Shown: positions 29,870-38,004 of the stretch, piece after piece
Numbering within the stretch: the stretch's first letter is position 1
Layout of the letters: each line of letters begins with the position of its first letter
Source: Candidatus Gastranaerophilales bacterium
Lineage (GTDB): Bacteria; Cyanobacteriota; Vampirovibrionia; Gastranaerophilales; Gastranaerophilaceae
Assembly: GCA_944324225.1 (NCBI GenBank)
Contig: CALUVL010000001.1
Span: 62,001 to 126,000 of the forward strand
Length of the DNA stretch: 64,000 nt
Reading direction: 5' to 3'
Notes under the pieces: generated by a model
What the model saw: only the letters and a program-made list of their open reading frames with translations
Told to the model about the DNA's origin: nothing
The model's database searches: none
Program-made: the position numbers and the translations under genes

Positions 29870-30193
29870 CTATTCACCTACTTCACCTGAGACAGGATTT
29901 TTTCCCGGCAGGCAAACACCAAATTGGCAATTAGAGTTGTAATTATTTTGTCCGCCTTGTGTGCTTATAGCGGCCCCGGTTTCAGTGTTTATAAGTTCGT
30001 CATAGTATGGCGTAATGTATCGGGGGCGAAAAGCATCCGGTTCCTGTAGTTCCTGAACGTGATCAGGAAGATATTTTTCCTGTAGCGGAGGTTTTTCAAT
30101 TGAATAGGCGCAGGAATTTCCACTTATTGCGCATGCTGCAAATGAGGCAAGCGGCATTAGCATTAATGCAGAAATCAAAAATAACTTTTTCAT
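29870..30193 (-). CDS. Small secreted protein, unknown function
   Basis: 107 residues from ATG 30193 (GAAAGGTTGG upstream; a start nine nt earlier is less likely). Signal peptide about 1-20, ending ASFAA. The mature part has four Cys (CAISGNSCAY, CQFGVCLPG), probably two disulfides, and a Gln/Asn-rich stretch. No family recognised. Confidence 0.65.
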   Translation of the reverse strand: MKKLFLISALMLMPLASFAACAISGNSCAYSIEKPPLQEKYLPDHVQELQEPDAFRPRYITPYYDELINTETGAAISTQGGQNNYNSNCQFGVCLPGKNPVSGEVGE

Positions 30194-30280
30194 ATTTACC
30201 AACCTTTCGCATATCCAACCATCTATATCTTAAATGTCCGCCAATATTTTTTCATTCCCTGAAAGTATAAAATTTGTTTC

Positions 30281-30466: not shown

Positions 30467-30892
30467 ATGTTTCTGAAATTTAAAAAATGGTTTTTATCAA
30501 CGGTTTTGAGGCGGAAATATTACCGGACAGGCAAGTGCAACGCTTGTGGCAAATGCTGTACTCAGATTTATGTAAAACATTTCAGGCATGTAATTCAGGA
30601 TGAGAAAGAGTTTGAAAAATTACAACTTCTTCACAGATTTTATACATATCTTAAGGTTATCGGCAAAGACGATATAGGATTAATCTTTGAATGTACTAAC
30701 CTTGATCCTGTAACTCATAAGTGTAAAATTCACAAAACTCGCCCCGGAATATGCAGGCGTTATCCTCAAGAAGAGCTTTTTTCTATGGGCGGTGCGCTAT
30801 CGGATGATTGCGGGTACAAAATGGAGCCGATTATTCCATTTGCTGAAGTTTTAGAAAAGACAAGAAAGAAAAATCACAGGCTGCCTTTTTAA
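30467..30892 (+). CDS. YkgJ-family Cys-cluster protein (putative metal-binding)
   Basis: 141 residues. GKCNACGKCCTQIYV near residue 25 and KCKIHKTRPGICRRYP near 90 are the paired Cys clusters of the YkgJ/Fe-S-or-Zn chelating family. Biochemical role not established for the family. No Shine-Dalgarno; TATCAT lies 6 nt before the ATG, so it may be leaderless. Its 3' end overlaps the calpain-like gene by 4 bp, convergently. Confidence 0.85.
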   Translation: MFLKFKKWFLSTVLRRKYYRTGKCNACGKCCTQIYVKHFRHVIQDEKEFEKLQLLHRFYTYLKVIGKDDIGLIFECTNLDPVTHKCKIHKTRPGICRRYPQEELFSMGGALSDDCGYKMEPIIPFAEVLEKTRKKNHRLPF

Positions 30893-31862
30893 AAGATGTC
30901 ATTTTTGTTGTGGCTGACAAAATACATAATTCGGGATTTAAAGTCATTAAAAGGCATAATTATTTCCTTTGAACTGTCCCATGGATTTTTAAGGACGACA
31001 GCTTCAATCCCGCCGCTGCTGTTCTGTAAAACAGAAGATATTGAATATCCGTGATCGGCAACAATATTAGGATTTCCGAATATTTGGTCGAACAAACCTG
31101 GTTTTTTGAATGAACACATAGAGGCATATTGATCCGAGGAGGACGCAATATTTAAAAGTGCTTCAGTCAACGAGTCATTAGTCAGTTTGTCTCTGTCAGA
31201 GGCAAGTGCACTCTTCGGAATTCTTTTATCGATTTTAACAGACTTCAATTGCAAAACGTGCCCTTCGCTTCCAGTAAGCATGTAGGCAAGCGAAGTTTTT
31301 CCCTCCATTAAACCTTCAGTAAGCGGATTGTCTGCGTTTTTAAAGCTGTAAGCTTCTTCATCAGCATGTGCTGCATAAAACTTTTCAGCAGCAACTTCTA
31401 TAATTTTTATATCAACATCACAGCTTGAATATTTTTCCGGATTTGCCGAGAGTTCGTCTGATGATACAGTGATTTGTTCCAGTTCTCCATCCGCATTATA
31501 AAAGGTAACGTTATAACCGCCCTGTCCGTCAGATTTTATAGCGTTATCAATTGCTTCTTTGCCCCAGGAAGTTTCACTTAGAGCGTTCAGGCTGCTTAAC
31601 AAATAGCAGTCGCCGGTCTGTTCGCTTTGTTTTGTAGCTCCAATTGTTCCGTCGCTAATTATCCCGAGTTTTTGTCCAAGACTTGTAAGGCTGTCATTTG
31701 ACAGTAAATCAATGTCATCAGTAAGACTTCCGTTGCCGTTTACATCAAATTGTTTGTATTCATTCCAGATGCTGGACTCCGAAGAAGATGAAATTTCAGA
31801 TGCTTTTGTTTTATTGCCGATAGGGTTTCTGCGCTTACCGAGGAAACATTGTTTACTGACAT
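30889..31862 (-). pseudogene. Calpain-like cysteine protease with EF-hand, frameshifted near the N-terminus
   Basis: The main frame encodes FDVNGNGSLTDDIDLL (EF-hand-like loop), SEQTGDCYLLSSLNALS (catalytic Cys), DHGYSISSV (His) and VLKNPWD (Asn), the calpain-type triad. This frame has no ATG upstream of the domain. The ATG at 31862, with GAAAGAGAG before it, opens MSVNNVSSVSAETLSAIKQK in the neighbouring frame, which stops at 31740; a one-base shift around 31800-31825 would join both. Either a recent frameshift mutation or a sequencing/assembly error. A slippery heptamer typical of programmed shifting is not seen. Confidence 0.65.
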
Positions 31863-32048
31863 AAATACTCTCTTTCTTTTTATATAAAATTTTTTGTAAA
31901 AACAAATATTCAATAAAATCCAAAAAGTTAACATAATTTTACAAAAAATAGGAATTATTCTTACTTTACAAAAATAATTTTATGTTGTATAGTAAAATAT
32001 GTAAAAAGAGATAGATAATTTCACGAGAAATTAAGAAAGGTGGTAAAA

Positions 32049-35119: not shown

Positions 35120-36448
35120 ATGAAAAAAGTATATATAGAAACAATGGGCTGCCAGATGAACAAGTCTGACAGCGAAAGAATGTTCGGAATGCTTCAGCAT
35201 TCAGGCTATGAACAAACTGAAAACCCGAAGGAAGCCGATCTTGTGATGGTTAATACGTGTTCAATCAGGCAGTTGAGTGAAGACAAAGCCTTTAGTCTGA
35301 TAGGCGTATGGGGTCAGTGGAAAAAAACTTCCAAACCGGATTTGAAAATAGGTTTTTGCGGTTGTGTTGCACAGCAAAAGATGAAAGAAGTTTTCAGAAG
35401 AGCACCTTATGTAGATTTTGTTCTTGGAACTCACAAAATCTATGCTTTGCCGGAGATTCTTAAAAAAGTTCAAAACGGAGAGCGTGTTCTTGAATGCACA
35501 GAAACAAATGCAACTGAAGATGACAGGGCTGCCGAGTATGAGATTAATCGTGTAAAAAGCGTTAATGCTTGGATTCCGATAACAGAAGGCTGTAACAACT
35601 TCTGCACATATTGTATTGTTCCATATACAAGAGGGCGGGAGCGCTCCAGAACTCCGGAAATTATTATTAAGGAAGCAAAAGCCGCACTGAAAGACGGCTT
35701 TAAAGAGATTACGCTTCTCGGGCAGAATGTGGATAGCTACGGTAAGGATTTTAAGGACAAAAATTATCATCTTGCGGATTTGCTGAAGGAGTTGAATGCT
35801 CTTGAAGGTCAATTCAGAATTCGTTTTGTGACATCTTATCCGACTGATATTACGGATGAACTTATCGATACGGTTGTTGCACTCGACAAGGTTTGTGAAT
35901 ACTTCCACATCCCGATGCAGTCAGGCTCGAGCGAAGTTCTGAAACGGATGAACAGACGCTATGACAGAGAAACTTACAAAAAAATTGTTGAAAAAGTCAG
36001 AAACAGAGTTCCGGATGTGACGATTACAAGCGACTTTATCGCTGGTTTTCCCGGCGAAACAGAAGAACAGTTTGTAGAAACTTTATCTGCAATTGATGAG
36101 TTTGAGCTTGATTACTCAAACACTGCCGCGTATTCTCCCCGTGAAAAAACAGTTGCCGCAAGATGGGTTGATGAATTTATTGACGAGGACACAAAAACCG
36201 AACGTCTTGCAAGGCTTAATGAAAAGGTTCGCGAAAATTGTCTTAAGTCCAACAAGAAATATGTCGGGCGCACAATGGAAGTTCTGATTGAAAACTTTGA
36301 AAATCACAAGGGCAAATATGTGATTACCGGCAGAACCCGCAATAACAAAATAGTTCATATTCCTTGTAATACGGATAGAACAGGTGAGTTTTTGGATGCT
36401 AAAATTACCGGTACAAAAACATGGTATCTTCAAGGTGAACTCGTGTAG
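35120..36448 (+). CDS. miaB: tRNA-2-methylthio-N6-isopentenyladenosine synthase MiaB
   Basis: 442 residues, AAGGAAG upstream. N-terminal UPF0004 domain with the auxiliary cluster ligands Cys11, Cys47 and Cys82; radical-SAM motif C158-x-x-x-C162-x-x-C165 in EGCNNFCTYCIVPYTRGRE; C-terminal TRAM domain. It adds the methylthio group to i6A37 of tRNAs reading UNN codons, using two Fe-S clusters and SAM. Standard length for the family. Confidence 0.97.
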   Translation: MKKVYIETMGCQMNKSDSERMFGMLQHSGYEQTENPKEADLVMVNTCSIRQLSEDKAFSLIGVWGQWKKTSKPDLKIGFCGCVAQQKMKEVFRRAPYVDFVLGTHKIYALPEILKKVQNGERVLECTETNATEDDRAAEYEINRVKSVNAWIPITEGCNNFCTYCIVPYTRGRERSRTPEIIIKEAKAALKDGFKEITLLGQNVDSYGKDFKDKNYHLADLLKELNALEGQFRIRFVTSYPTDITDELIDTVVALDKVCEYFHIPMQSGSSEVLKRMNRRYDRETYKKIVEKVRNRVPDVTITSDFIAGFPGETEEQFVETLSAIDEFELDYSNTAAYSPREKTVAARWVDEFIDEDTKTERLARLNEKVRENCLKSNKKYVGRTMEVLIENFENHKGKYVITGRTRNNKIVHIPCNTDRTGEFLDAKITGTKTWYLQGELV

Positions 36449-36451
36449 GGT

Positions 36452-36625
36452 TTAGAATCTTTTGCATAGTTCATCCGAAAGTGTAAGCAAATATTCAGTT
36501 AAGACCGTCATAGAACAAATCCTTCTGCTTTCATTAAGATAATCCATGCAATAGTTATGCAGGATTTCAGCAGCAGCATAAATATCGTGCGCCAGAAGGT
36601 CGTTATTTTTATCTTTTAGATCCAT
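36452..36625 (-). CDS. Small helical hypothetical protein divergent to the AbrB-like regulator
   Basis: 57 residues, MDLKDKNNDLLAHDIYAAAE to the end SDELCKRF, predicted helical. GAGGAAT precedes the ATG. It ends 4 nt from the miaB stop (convergent) and starts 99 bp from the AbrB-like gene, with a perfect inverted repeat between the two. Probably co-regulated with, or a partner of, that regulator. No family recognised. Confidence 0.6.
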   Translation of the reverse strand: MDLKDKNNDLLAHDIYAAAEILHNYCMDYLNESRRICSMTVLTEYLLTLSDELCKRF

Positions 36626-36637
36626 ATATTCCTCTTT

Positions 36638-36680
36638 TATGCTTATTATATGCTTTTAAATTATTATCATAATAAGCATA
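36638..36680. promoter_or_regulatory. Perfect 12-bp inverted repeat, candidate operator
   Basis: TATGCTTATTAT (36638-36649) and ATAATAAGCATA (36669-36680) are exact reverse complements separated by 19 bp, so equivalent points are 31 bp apart (about three helical turns). The site lies between two divergent small genes, one of them an AbrB/MazE-type DNA-binding protein. Confidence 0.65.
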
Positions 36681-36723
36681 AAATGTCAATAAGATAAGAT
36701 ATAATATTGACATTGAGGTAAAT

Positions 36724-36879
36724 ATGCATAAAAGATTAAGACAGCAGGGCACAAGCTGGGGAATAATTATCCCGAAAGCTATTTTGGAACTTCTTAAAAT
36801 TAATCCGGTTCTCGATGAAGTTGAACTCATCGTAGAAAATGATGAACTTAAAATTCGTAAATACAAAGCTGAAAAGTAA
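36724..36879 (+). CDS. AbrB/MazE-type DNA-binding protein
   Basis: 51 residues: KRLRQQGTSWGIIIPKAILE, then a short acidic turn and DELKIRKYKAEK. This is the swapped-hairpin SpoVT/AbrB fold of small regulators and MazE-like antitoxins (rphGnSwgiviPk pattern). GAGGT lies before the ATG. No toxin gene of MazF type follows, so an autoregulated transcription factor is the simpler reading. Confidence 0.8.
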   Translation: MHKRLRQQGTSWGIIIPKAILELLKINPVLDEVELIVENDELKIRKYKAEK

Positions 36880-36945: not shown

Positions 36946-38004
36946 CTATTTTTTGAAGGCTTCTGCAATTGATTTTTTGTAATCAGGACGTAGAATTCCA
37001 ACTTCCGTAATAATTCCGGTAATAAGTTCATGCGGGGTTACGTCGAATCCGGGGTTGATTACATTAACCTCAGGAGCACAGATAATTTTGCCGTTAATAT
37101 GAGTCACTTCTTCTCTTGAGCGCTCTTCAATCGGGATTTCATCATCTGAATGAATGGATATATCAATAGTTGAAAGCGGTGCCGCCACGTAAAACGGGAT
37201 GTTGTGATATTTTGCAGCAATTGCAACTGTGTAAGTTCCGATTTTGTTTGCGGCATCTCCGTTTGCTGCAATTCTGTCGGCTCCTACGCAAACCATATCT
37301 ATCATGCCTTTTTTCATAAAATATGAACACATGCCGTCTGTAATTAATGTTGTCGGAATACCGTCCATTGTAAGCTCGAATGTCGTAATCCTTGCACCCT
37401 GCTGGCGCGGGCGGGTTTCATCAGCAAATACCTGAATTGTATTGTCTTTTGCAAATGCGCTTCTGACAACTCCGAGCGCTGTTCCGTATCCGACCGTCGC
37501 AAGTCCGCCTGCATTGCAATGTGTTAAAATAGTTGCGCCTTCGGGAACTACTTCTGCGCCGTAGTCACCGATTTTTTTGTTTATCGCAATGTCTTCATCC
37601 TCAAGCTTTATACCGTTTTGTTTAAGTTCTTCAACAATACCTTTTATGTCAGAGGTCGAATTTTTAATAACTTCTTTTTGCTTTTCGACAGCCCACATAA
37701 GATTTACCGCTGTCGGGCGGGATGTTGCCATATAATCGGCTTTTTCCAGCAGTTTTTTGACGAATTCATCCCTTGACAGGTTTTCTTTTTCAAGTTCCTG
37801 CGCGTACAGCACAACCCCGTGTGCGCCGGCTACTCCGATAGCTGGTGCACCCCTTACAATCATTGTTTTGATTGCATTATACATCTGCTGTCCGCCTGTT
37901 ATGTTTATATATTTGAACTCGTATGGCAAAACTGTCTGGTCTACCATTTTGGAATAATTGTCTATCCATTGAATTGTCTTTATTTTAGAATGAAATTCTG
38001 CCAT
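36946..38004 (-). CDS. mtnA: S-methyl-5-thioribose-1-phosphate isomerase
   Basis: 352 residues, full length. MIVRGAPAIGVAGAHG, THCNAGGLATVGYGTALG (catalytic Cys163) and VGADRIAANGDAANKIGT (catalytic Asp243) identify MtnA of the methionine salvage pathway. No other salvage gene is in the window. Co-transcribed with the membrane protein gene that ends 2 bp upstream of its start. Confidence 0.96.
   Translation of the reverse strand: MAEFHSKIKTIQWIDNYSKMVDQTVLPYEFKYINITGGQQMYNAIKTMIVRGAPAIGVAGAHGVVLYAQELEKENLSRDEFVKKLLEKADYMATSRPTAVNLMWAVEKQKEVIKNSTSDIKGIVEELKQNGIKLEDEDIAINKKIGDYGAEVVPEGATILTHCNAGGLATVGYGTALGVVRSAFAKDNTIQVFADETRPRQQGARITTFELTMDGIPTTLITDGMCSYFMKKGMIDMVCVGADRIAANGDAANKIGTYTVAIAAKYHNIPFYVAAPLSTIDISIHSDDEIPIEERSREEVTHINGKIICAPEVNVINPGFDVTPHELITGIITEVGILRPDYKKSIAEAFKK

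Follow-up and report, generated by a model that had tools for sequence, protein, structure and literature searches.

In B. subtilis, AbbA is an antirepressor of AbrB. As far as excerpts of PMC4022651 go, Bacillus AbrB has hundreds of sites, and the choice of DNA by proteins of this fold is called elusive because their recognition sites differ highly. Antitoxins of the MazE/PemI type are negatively autoregulated at a palindromic operator, according to excerpts of PMC4803016. Open-licence PMC papers gave no joint mention of AbrB and Gastranaerophilales, and for AbrB as an orphan antitoxin, for its specificity, for coevolution and for divergent transcription they yielded nothing, or papers that concern other systems judging by their titles and the opening lines of their abstracts. 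Here, we describe a pair of divergent, very small genes from the 1.93-Mb draft genome of a gut bacterium (Candidatus Gastranaerophilales), in which the predicted operator changes in step with a few residues of an AbrB-like protein. This speaks for a miniature switch under its own control and not for a toxin-antitoxin pair.

The open reading frames of the window (the whole stretch of 64,000 nucleotides that was analysed) include both of the tiny genes of less than 60 codons that the original prediction had claimed, one of 57 and one of 51 amino acids. They diverge from an intergenic stretch of 98 bp with 19% GC, and the module has a miaB-like gene on one side and, on the other, an mtnA-like gene in convergent orientation. 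The features are as follows, with the half-sites and the −10 hexamer of the mini-AbrB gene read from the sequence:

35120-36448, plus strand: upstream neighbour, miaB-like gene (Radical SAM / UPF0004 / TRAM), outside the module and marking its slot
36452-36625, minus strand: partner gene divergent from the mini-AbrB gene, 57 aa, of no known family and predicted to fold as a two-helix hairpin (helices 3-28 and 33-55); dN/dS of 0.09 against its closest homologue; homologue of the 69-aa partners in sister species
36635-36683, no strand: predicted operator, an inverted repeat with two perfect 15-bp arms (36635-36649, 36669-36683) around a spacer of 19
36638-36648, plus strand: half-site 1, TATGCTTATTA
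36649-36659, plus strand: half-site 2, TATGCTTTTAA
36660-36670, minus strand: half-site 3, ATGATAATAAT, degenerate, with clean counterparts here in loci L009 and L019
36671-36680, minus strand: half-site 4, TATGCTTATT
36660-36689, minus strand: predicted 57-mer promoter, TTGACA (36689-36684), spacer 18, AATAAT (36665-36660), 11 of 12 consensus bases
36700-36705, plus strand: predicted −10 of the mini-AbrB gene, TATAAT, with no good −35, the position of which overlaps the right arm
36724-36879, plus strand: mini-AbrB gene, 51 aa, MHKRLRQQGTSWGIIIP..., predicted DNA-contact loop at residues 6-13; profile, PHROG and fold matches; seven other orthologues in the genus, 82-92% identical
36946-38004, minus strand: downstream neighbour, mtnA-like gene (IF-2B family), outside the module

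Elsewhere in the window, a calpain-family cysteine protease is encoded at 30892-31923 on the minus strand (PF00648, 24.9 bits against a cut-off of 23.8), preceded by a stretch which we read as EF-hand-like.

The AbrB/MazE type proposed for the 51-mer was borne out, and its membership of the SpoVT/AbrB/MazE DNA-binding domain family is supported by sequence comparison. The protein matches Pfam PF04014 at E 2.9e-5 with 24.4 bits, which is 0.3 below the curated cut-off of 24.7, as well as PHROG 4324 (E 5e-7), and a profile built from 13 relatives picks up chains of MazE and Abh (E 9e-5 to 1.2e-4 for MazE). Its AF2 model (pLDDT 76.7, pTM 0.49, the first ten N-terminal residues at 51) has AbrB, MazE and SpoVT as top Foldseek matches, all of them weak (E 0.07 or worse); the best, the N-domain of AbrB, has a probability of 0.98 but an E value of 0.069. 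When the profile is aligned to MazE chains, residues 7-8 fall on Arg-Trp of the MazE KRWGNS, and they sit in the part of the domain that holds the DNA contacts proposed for AbrB (R8, R15, R23 and R24 in excerpts of PMC4022651). The last predicted strand ends at residue 46, so that the protein stops about five residues further on and has no toxin-wrapping tail. Neither small protein had a match in 50,697 phage records, a scan of viral contigs with the AbrB met no relative, and the AbrB query gave only three matches in plasmid records, all with E near 0.01, the first of which adjoins a PemK/MazF toxin. A phage or plasmid origin of the module was dropped on these grounds.

For the 57-mer, no family was matched in Pfam, NCBIfam, PHROGs or PADLOC. 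Its model is a two-helix hairpin with a pLDDT of 79. A comparison with the PDB gave nothing significant by sequence or fold, and the fold matches were weak and unspecific, as two-helix hairpins weakly match everything.

An AbrB orthologue was found in 8 of the 14 genomes of the genus. It had been suggested that co-occurrence of the two genes be checked, and that the module would be in doubt if the partner were absent or broken in all relatives. This is not so: an intact divergent homologue of 57, 66 or 69 codons lies 86-99 bp from the AbrB start in 8 out of 8 genomes that carry AbrB. A search with the 57-mer alone recovered four of the eight partners at E 1e-4 or better, the four 69-aa partners being located by position, and a profile comparison showed that the 57-mers and 69-mers are homologous (E 1.3e-6, with 0 of 60 column shuffles as good). 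Identity to the 57-mer ranges across the genus from 95% down to 21%. Between close pairs, dN/dS lies at 0.04-0.22 in the partner and at 0.04-0.09 in AbrB. The 57-mer and the 51-mer are both encoded by genuine genes.

Among the six genomes without an orthologue, the miaB-like gene was examined in five; the sixth, G013, has no orthologous miaB match. The mtnA-like gene directly follows the miaB-like gene in G004, and in the other four the latter is followed by a gene that is acetyltransferase-like by reading alone. At 29870-30202 on the minus strand, the window encodes a small protein that looks secreted and has no match in Pfam. In G002 and G010 its homologue comes immediately after the module on the downstream side, so the locus has been rearranged on its far side.

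A sequence scan located the perfect 12-bp repeat of the original prediction, TATGCTTATTAT-N19-ATAATAAGCATA, at 36638-36680 with zero mismatches, and 100 shuffles of the window gave 0 matches, even with 3 mismatches tolerated. The true arms are longer, with 15 bp on each side of the spacer of 19 (TTTTATGCTTATTAT from 36635); among 1000 dinucleotide shuffles of the intergenic stretch (98 bp), 3 gave arms of at least 12 bp. Read at 11-bp steps, positions 36638-36680 resolve into TATGCTTATTA / TATGCTTTTAA / ATTATTATCAT / AATAAGCATA, that is, two forward and two reverse half-sites with the third one degenerate. Thus the repeat itself stands, but four half-sites are a better reading than the single 12-bp pair that was thought to be contacted by a dimer or tetramer. 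In the whole genome, ATGCTTATT-N23-AATAAGCAT has one exact occurrence, and the next-best sites are 4 at 3 mismatches, compared with 1 for a reversed control pattern. A global AbrB regulon was discarded on the basis of these counts.

The right operator arm occupies the 18-bp spacer between the −35 and −10 of the predicted 57-mer promoter, and its left counterpart directly adjoins the ribosome site of the 57-mer. The promoter scan of the region found 3 promoter-like sites against 2.2 in shuffles, so that overall it does not exceed the shuffled level. A divergent promoter in the same arrangement is present in 65 of 110 loci of the wider family and in 16 of 428 displaced windows. Within −45 to −12, 82 of the 110 loci have a −10-like hexamer, a count for which no control was run.

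The module of the window is a member of a large family in Candidatus Gastranaerophilales: the genus AbrB profile matches 215 of 383 family genomes at E 1e-4. From the loci that were fetched, we took 112 distinct stand-alone, single-domain mini-AbrB loci. Two of them were left out throughout, L059 because it belongs to another family and L026 because it lacks upstream sequence, and the count of divergent genes also omits L115, whose upstream sequence is short; frames with two AbrB domains were skipped in both locus collections. Many of these genomes encode such two-domain proteins, with 104-130 aa in a single frame (e.g. G007:C1:68099-68404 and G058:C1:211203-211520). A divergent ORF of at least 45 codons, preceded by a ribosome site and 70-135 bp away, was found in 78 of 109 loci, compared with 0.9 in shuffles and 11 of 318 displaced windows. 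By rules of our own, with XRE checked in Pfam on two examples, the divergent genes of 110 loci were sorted into 48 small unclassified, 17 XRE-HTH, 16 that we take to be prepilin-like from a motif, 1 large and 28 unclear. AbrB body and partner class are inherited together within sub-families. The genus partner showed no homology to the remaining small helical partners, among which groups B, C, C2 and F form one separate family. Only 62 of 110 upstream stretches have a recurring 7-mer or an inverted repeat that exceeds the shuffles.

The genome of the window carries two further mini-AbrB paralogues on contig C4 (L003 and L002), each divergent from a prepilin-like gene. In the RSGSGW class (L002, L200, L204, L206, L207, L218, L219 and L235), an inverted repeat of the ATGATTTT...AAAATCAT type lies across the abrB promoter and touches the ribosome site; it may work at the DNA level or as a hairpin in the RNA.

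Residues 7-8 of the genus AbrB are QQ or QH in five orthologues and SL in three. The QQ/QH orthologues go with ATGCTTATT-type units (TGCTTAT) and the three SL orthologues with a different unit. On the 57-mer background, the window (genome G000, QQ) has a partner 95% identical to that of G006 (SL); on the 69-mer background, G002 (QH) and G010/G001 (SL) have partners that are 91-94% identical. Loop and operator thus change beside a constant partner, and they do so on two backgrounds. A breakpoint scan of G006 is no more than suggestive of recombination: on the upstream side of the operator and within abrB, L007 is nearest to the window, and between these two parts it is mixed.

The same tendency was observed in the wider family. 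An unbiased column scan of 63 representatives below 85% identity, which considered upstream 8-mers shared beyond overall identity, revealed AbrB position 8 as the best predictor (z 6.8, 0 of 500 permutations as good). The next columns are 23, 11, 13, 7 and 10, with position 23 in the helix, outside the loop. In a four-way comparison, loci with the same partner and a different triple of residues 7, 8 and 10 share 8.2 7-mers (15 pairs), and those with the same partner and the same triple share 41.2 (9 pairs); for unrelated partners the values are 12.0 with the same triple (313 pairs) and 5.8 with a different one, which is the background (5607 pairs).

With Ile/Val at position 8, Asn10 accompanies TTATAAC, and Thr/Ser10 accompanies TTATAAT. 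Loci with Ile/Val8 and Asn10 have on average 2.81 TTATAAC and 1.42 TTATAAT (48 loci), those with Thr/Ser10 have 1.27 and 7.47 (15 loci), and those with Gly10, a rule noticed post hoc, have 0.11 and 2.33 along with 2.56 TAGTAA (9 loci). Where position 8 is not Ile/Val, the values are 0.05 TTATAAC, 0.64 TTATAAT and 0.29 TAGTAA (77 loci). In one body family, three loops (TIGT, A/PIGG and QIGN) come with three signals, none of which is present in its AIGN copy, L198. The prediction for Q[IV]G-N and Q[IV]G-T/S was fixed before the second collection, in which 3 of 41 new loci were eligible; two agree, and L170 disagrees, with TAATAAC instead of TTATAAC. Among all new Ile/Val8 loci, at least two TTATAAT accompany Thr/Ser10 in 5 out of 5, and with Asn10 at least two TTATAAC are present in 6 out of 10 and at least two TTATAAT in 4 out of 10. 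On a tree of loop-less bodies, 3.7 of 5 independent pairs are concordant for Asn versus Thr/Ser10 (none opposite) and 4.4 of 5 for Gly10 (0.1 opposite), too few in both cases for 0.05; for Ile/Val8 versus other residues, the tree has just 2 supported pairs, which is uninformative. Within genomes, 1 of 25 pairs shares its loop triple (1.4 expected), a count that is uninformative as to whether the loops of one genome are orthogonal. In sequence comparison, then, the predicted operator follows the AbrB recognition loop (residues 7, 8 and 10), not the partner.

In L105 (G325:C21, around 290177 and 290657), two modules with identical 62-aa partners are 480 bp apart. Their AbrB loops are KLRNIGNSW and RMIQVGNSW, and the upstream signals differ as well.

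Computation gives two genes in a shared divergent layout, a single operator and a loop that switches together with it. We consider it quite probable that the module is a self-contained, single-site repressor of its own gene and of the divergent small gene, a reading in which DNA binding is inferred. The 51-mer, putatively as a dimer or tetramer, would bind the array of four half-sites between the two start codons via its N-terminal loop. Once bound, it would block the divergent promoter of the 57-mer, the −35/−10 spacer of which is the right operator arm, and also its own promoter, so that the bidirectional promoter would be closed. The 51-mer would act as a local autorepressor and not as a global AbrB, and the 57-mer, a small acidic two-helix protein, would be the regulated cargo of this copy. 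In other parts of the family, a like repressor would stand before other small helical genes, small XRE-type HTH genes or prepilin-like genes. The self-regulated module suggested originally is thus well supported, if indirectly, in that operator and loop switch together with the partner constant and the right arm fills the spacer of the predicted promoter.

A finer version of the repressor reading, which we somewhat favour, takes the divergent gene for ordinary cargo whose role lies in another part of the cell, with no contact at any time between the two proteins. It is consistent with the exchange of the divergent gene over the family (the classes of the 110 loci given above), but strict pairing and the co-inheritance of AbrB body and partner class would equally fit physical contact. 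Such contact would be expected if the 57-mer were an antirepressor ligand that lifts its own repression by the 51-mer, as AbbA does on AbrB, in a two-protein switch. The pairing in all eight genomes of the genus, the predicted hairpin and the charges (−4 for the 57-mer and −2.9 on average for the 48 loci of the small-partner class, against +2 for the basic repressor) fit this analogy. Nevertheless, we regard it as rather improbable. Mini-AbrBs also precede HTH and prepilin-like genes, which indicates that a helical partner is not needed for a mini-AbrB to work; the small helical partners belong to several families with no detectable relation to that of the genus; AbbA is absent among the matches listed for the 57-mer; and within the genus partner identity falls to 21-32%, while AbrB stays at 82% or above. 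A type II toxin-antitoxin pair, with the 51-mer as antitoxin and the 57-mer as toxin, would be in keeping with the frequency of the AbrB/MazE fold in antitoxins (excerpts of PMC4803016), the autoregulation at palindromes typical of such systems and the several copies per genome. However, the genome has no PemK/MazF (PF02452) match, although the same search was positive in 3 of 14 control genomes, the 51-mer lacks a tail for toxin wrapping, the genes are divergent rather than operonic, the class of the partner is not constant, with HTH and prepilin-like genes among those seen, and none of the models of PADLOC, Pfam, NCBIfam and PHROGs fits the 57-mer. The toxin-antitoxin-like character proposed at the outset is therefore not supported, and with no MazF family member, tail or known toxin partner we consider it very unlikely and abandoned it as the main reading. 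Because other copies carry HTH or prepilin-like genes, plain cargo is likeliest, the antirepressor comes second and a toxin is unlikely.

It might also be supposed that the likeness of operators reflects only the shared ancestry of recently copied loci and no binding code. Close pairs do share far more 7-mers (41.2), and the tree test is underpowered. Shared ancestry predicts operators that track the partner or the AbrB body, but the column scan and the four-way comparison point to the loop: near-identical partners with different loops are barely above background (8.2 versus 5.8), unrelated partners with equal loops share more (12.0), and a single body family has three loops with three signals. 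We give this explanation hardly any weight. At the other extreme, the joint change of loop residues and operators could mean that copied modules escape cross-talk. The family would then consist of mutually insulated AbrB-fold switches of about 50 residues, loop and four-half-site operator changing together, each with a dedicated small partner that binds the repressor, and the loop-operator pairs would be a readable protein-DNA code for the AbrB/MazE fold; as a whole, this is a speculative proposal that we think doubtful.

Under the preferred repressor reading, each repressor has its likely site next to it. Modules that are nearly identical differ at this site together with two or three residues of the loop, which makes a direct and cheap test of a recognition code possible. 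For stand-alone AbrB/MazE-like small proteins, annotation as antitoxins should not be the default, and the module is a lead to two sets of small proteins that annotation often misses.

The MazE/PemI antitoxins (swapped-hairpin fold; PDB 2mrn, 2mru, 1mvf and 1ub4) have the same domain by profile and are among the top structural matches, but the module has neither a toxin nor a toxin-binding tail, and a divergent small gene takes the place of a downstream toxin. With Bacillus AbrB, Abh and SpoVT, the modelled 51-mer appears to share the N-terminal fold, whereas it stands alone and has one operator in the genome. AbbA, if the antirepressor explanation is right, would likewise be a small protein genetically tied to an AbrB-type repressor, yet no sequence or fold match to it is among the matches listed, and the 57-mer is encoded beside its repressor. 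The 'local regulation' code of the LacI family (excerpts of PMC2978694) was likewise read from regulators paired with operators in their neighbourhood; in contrast, the beta loop of the AbrB type belongs to another fold, and here the switches occur between near-identical modules.
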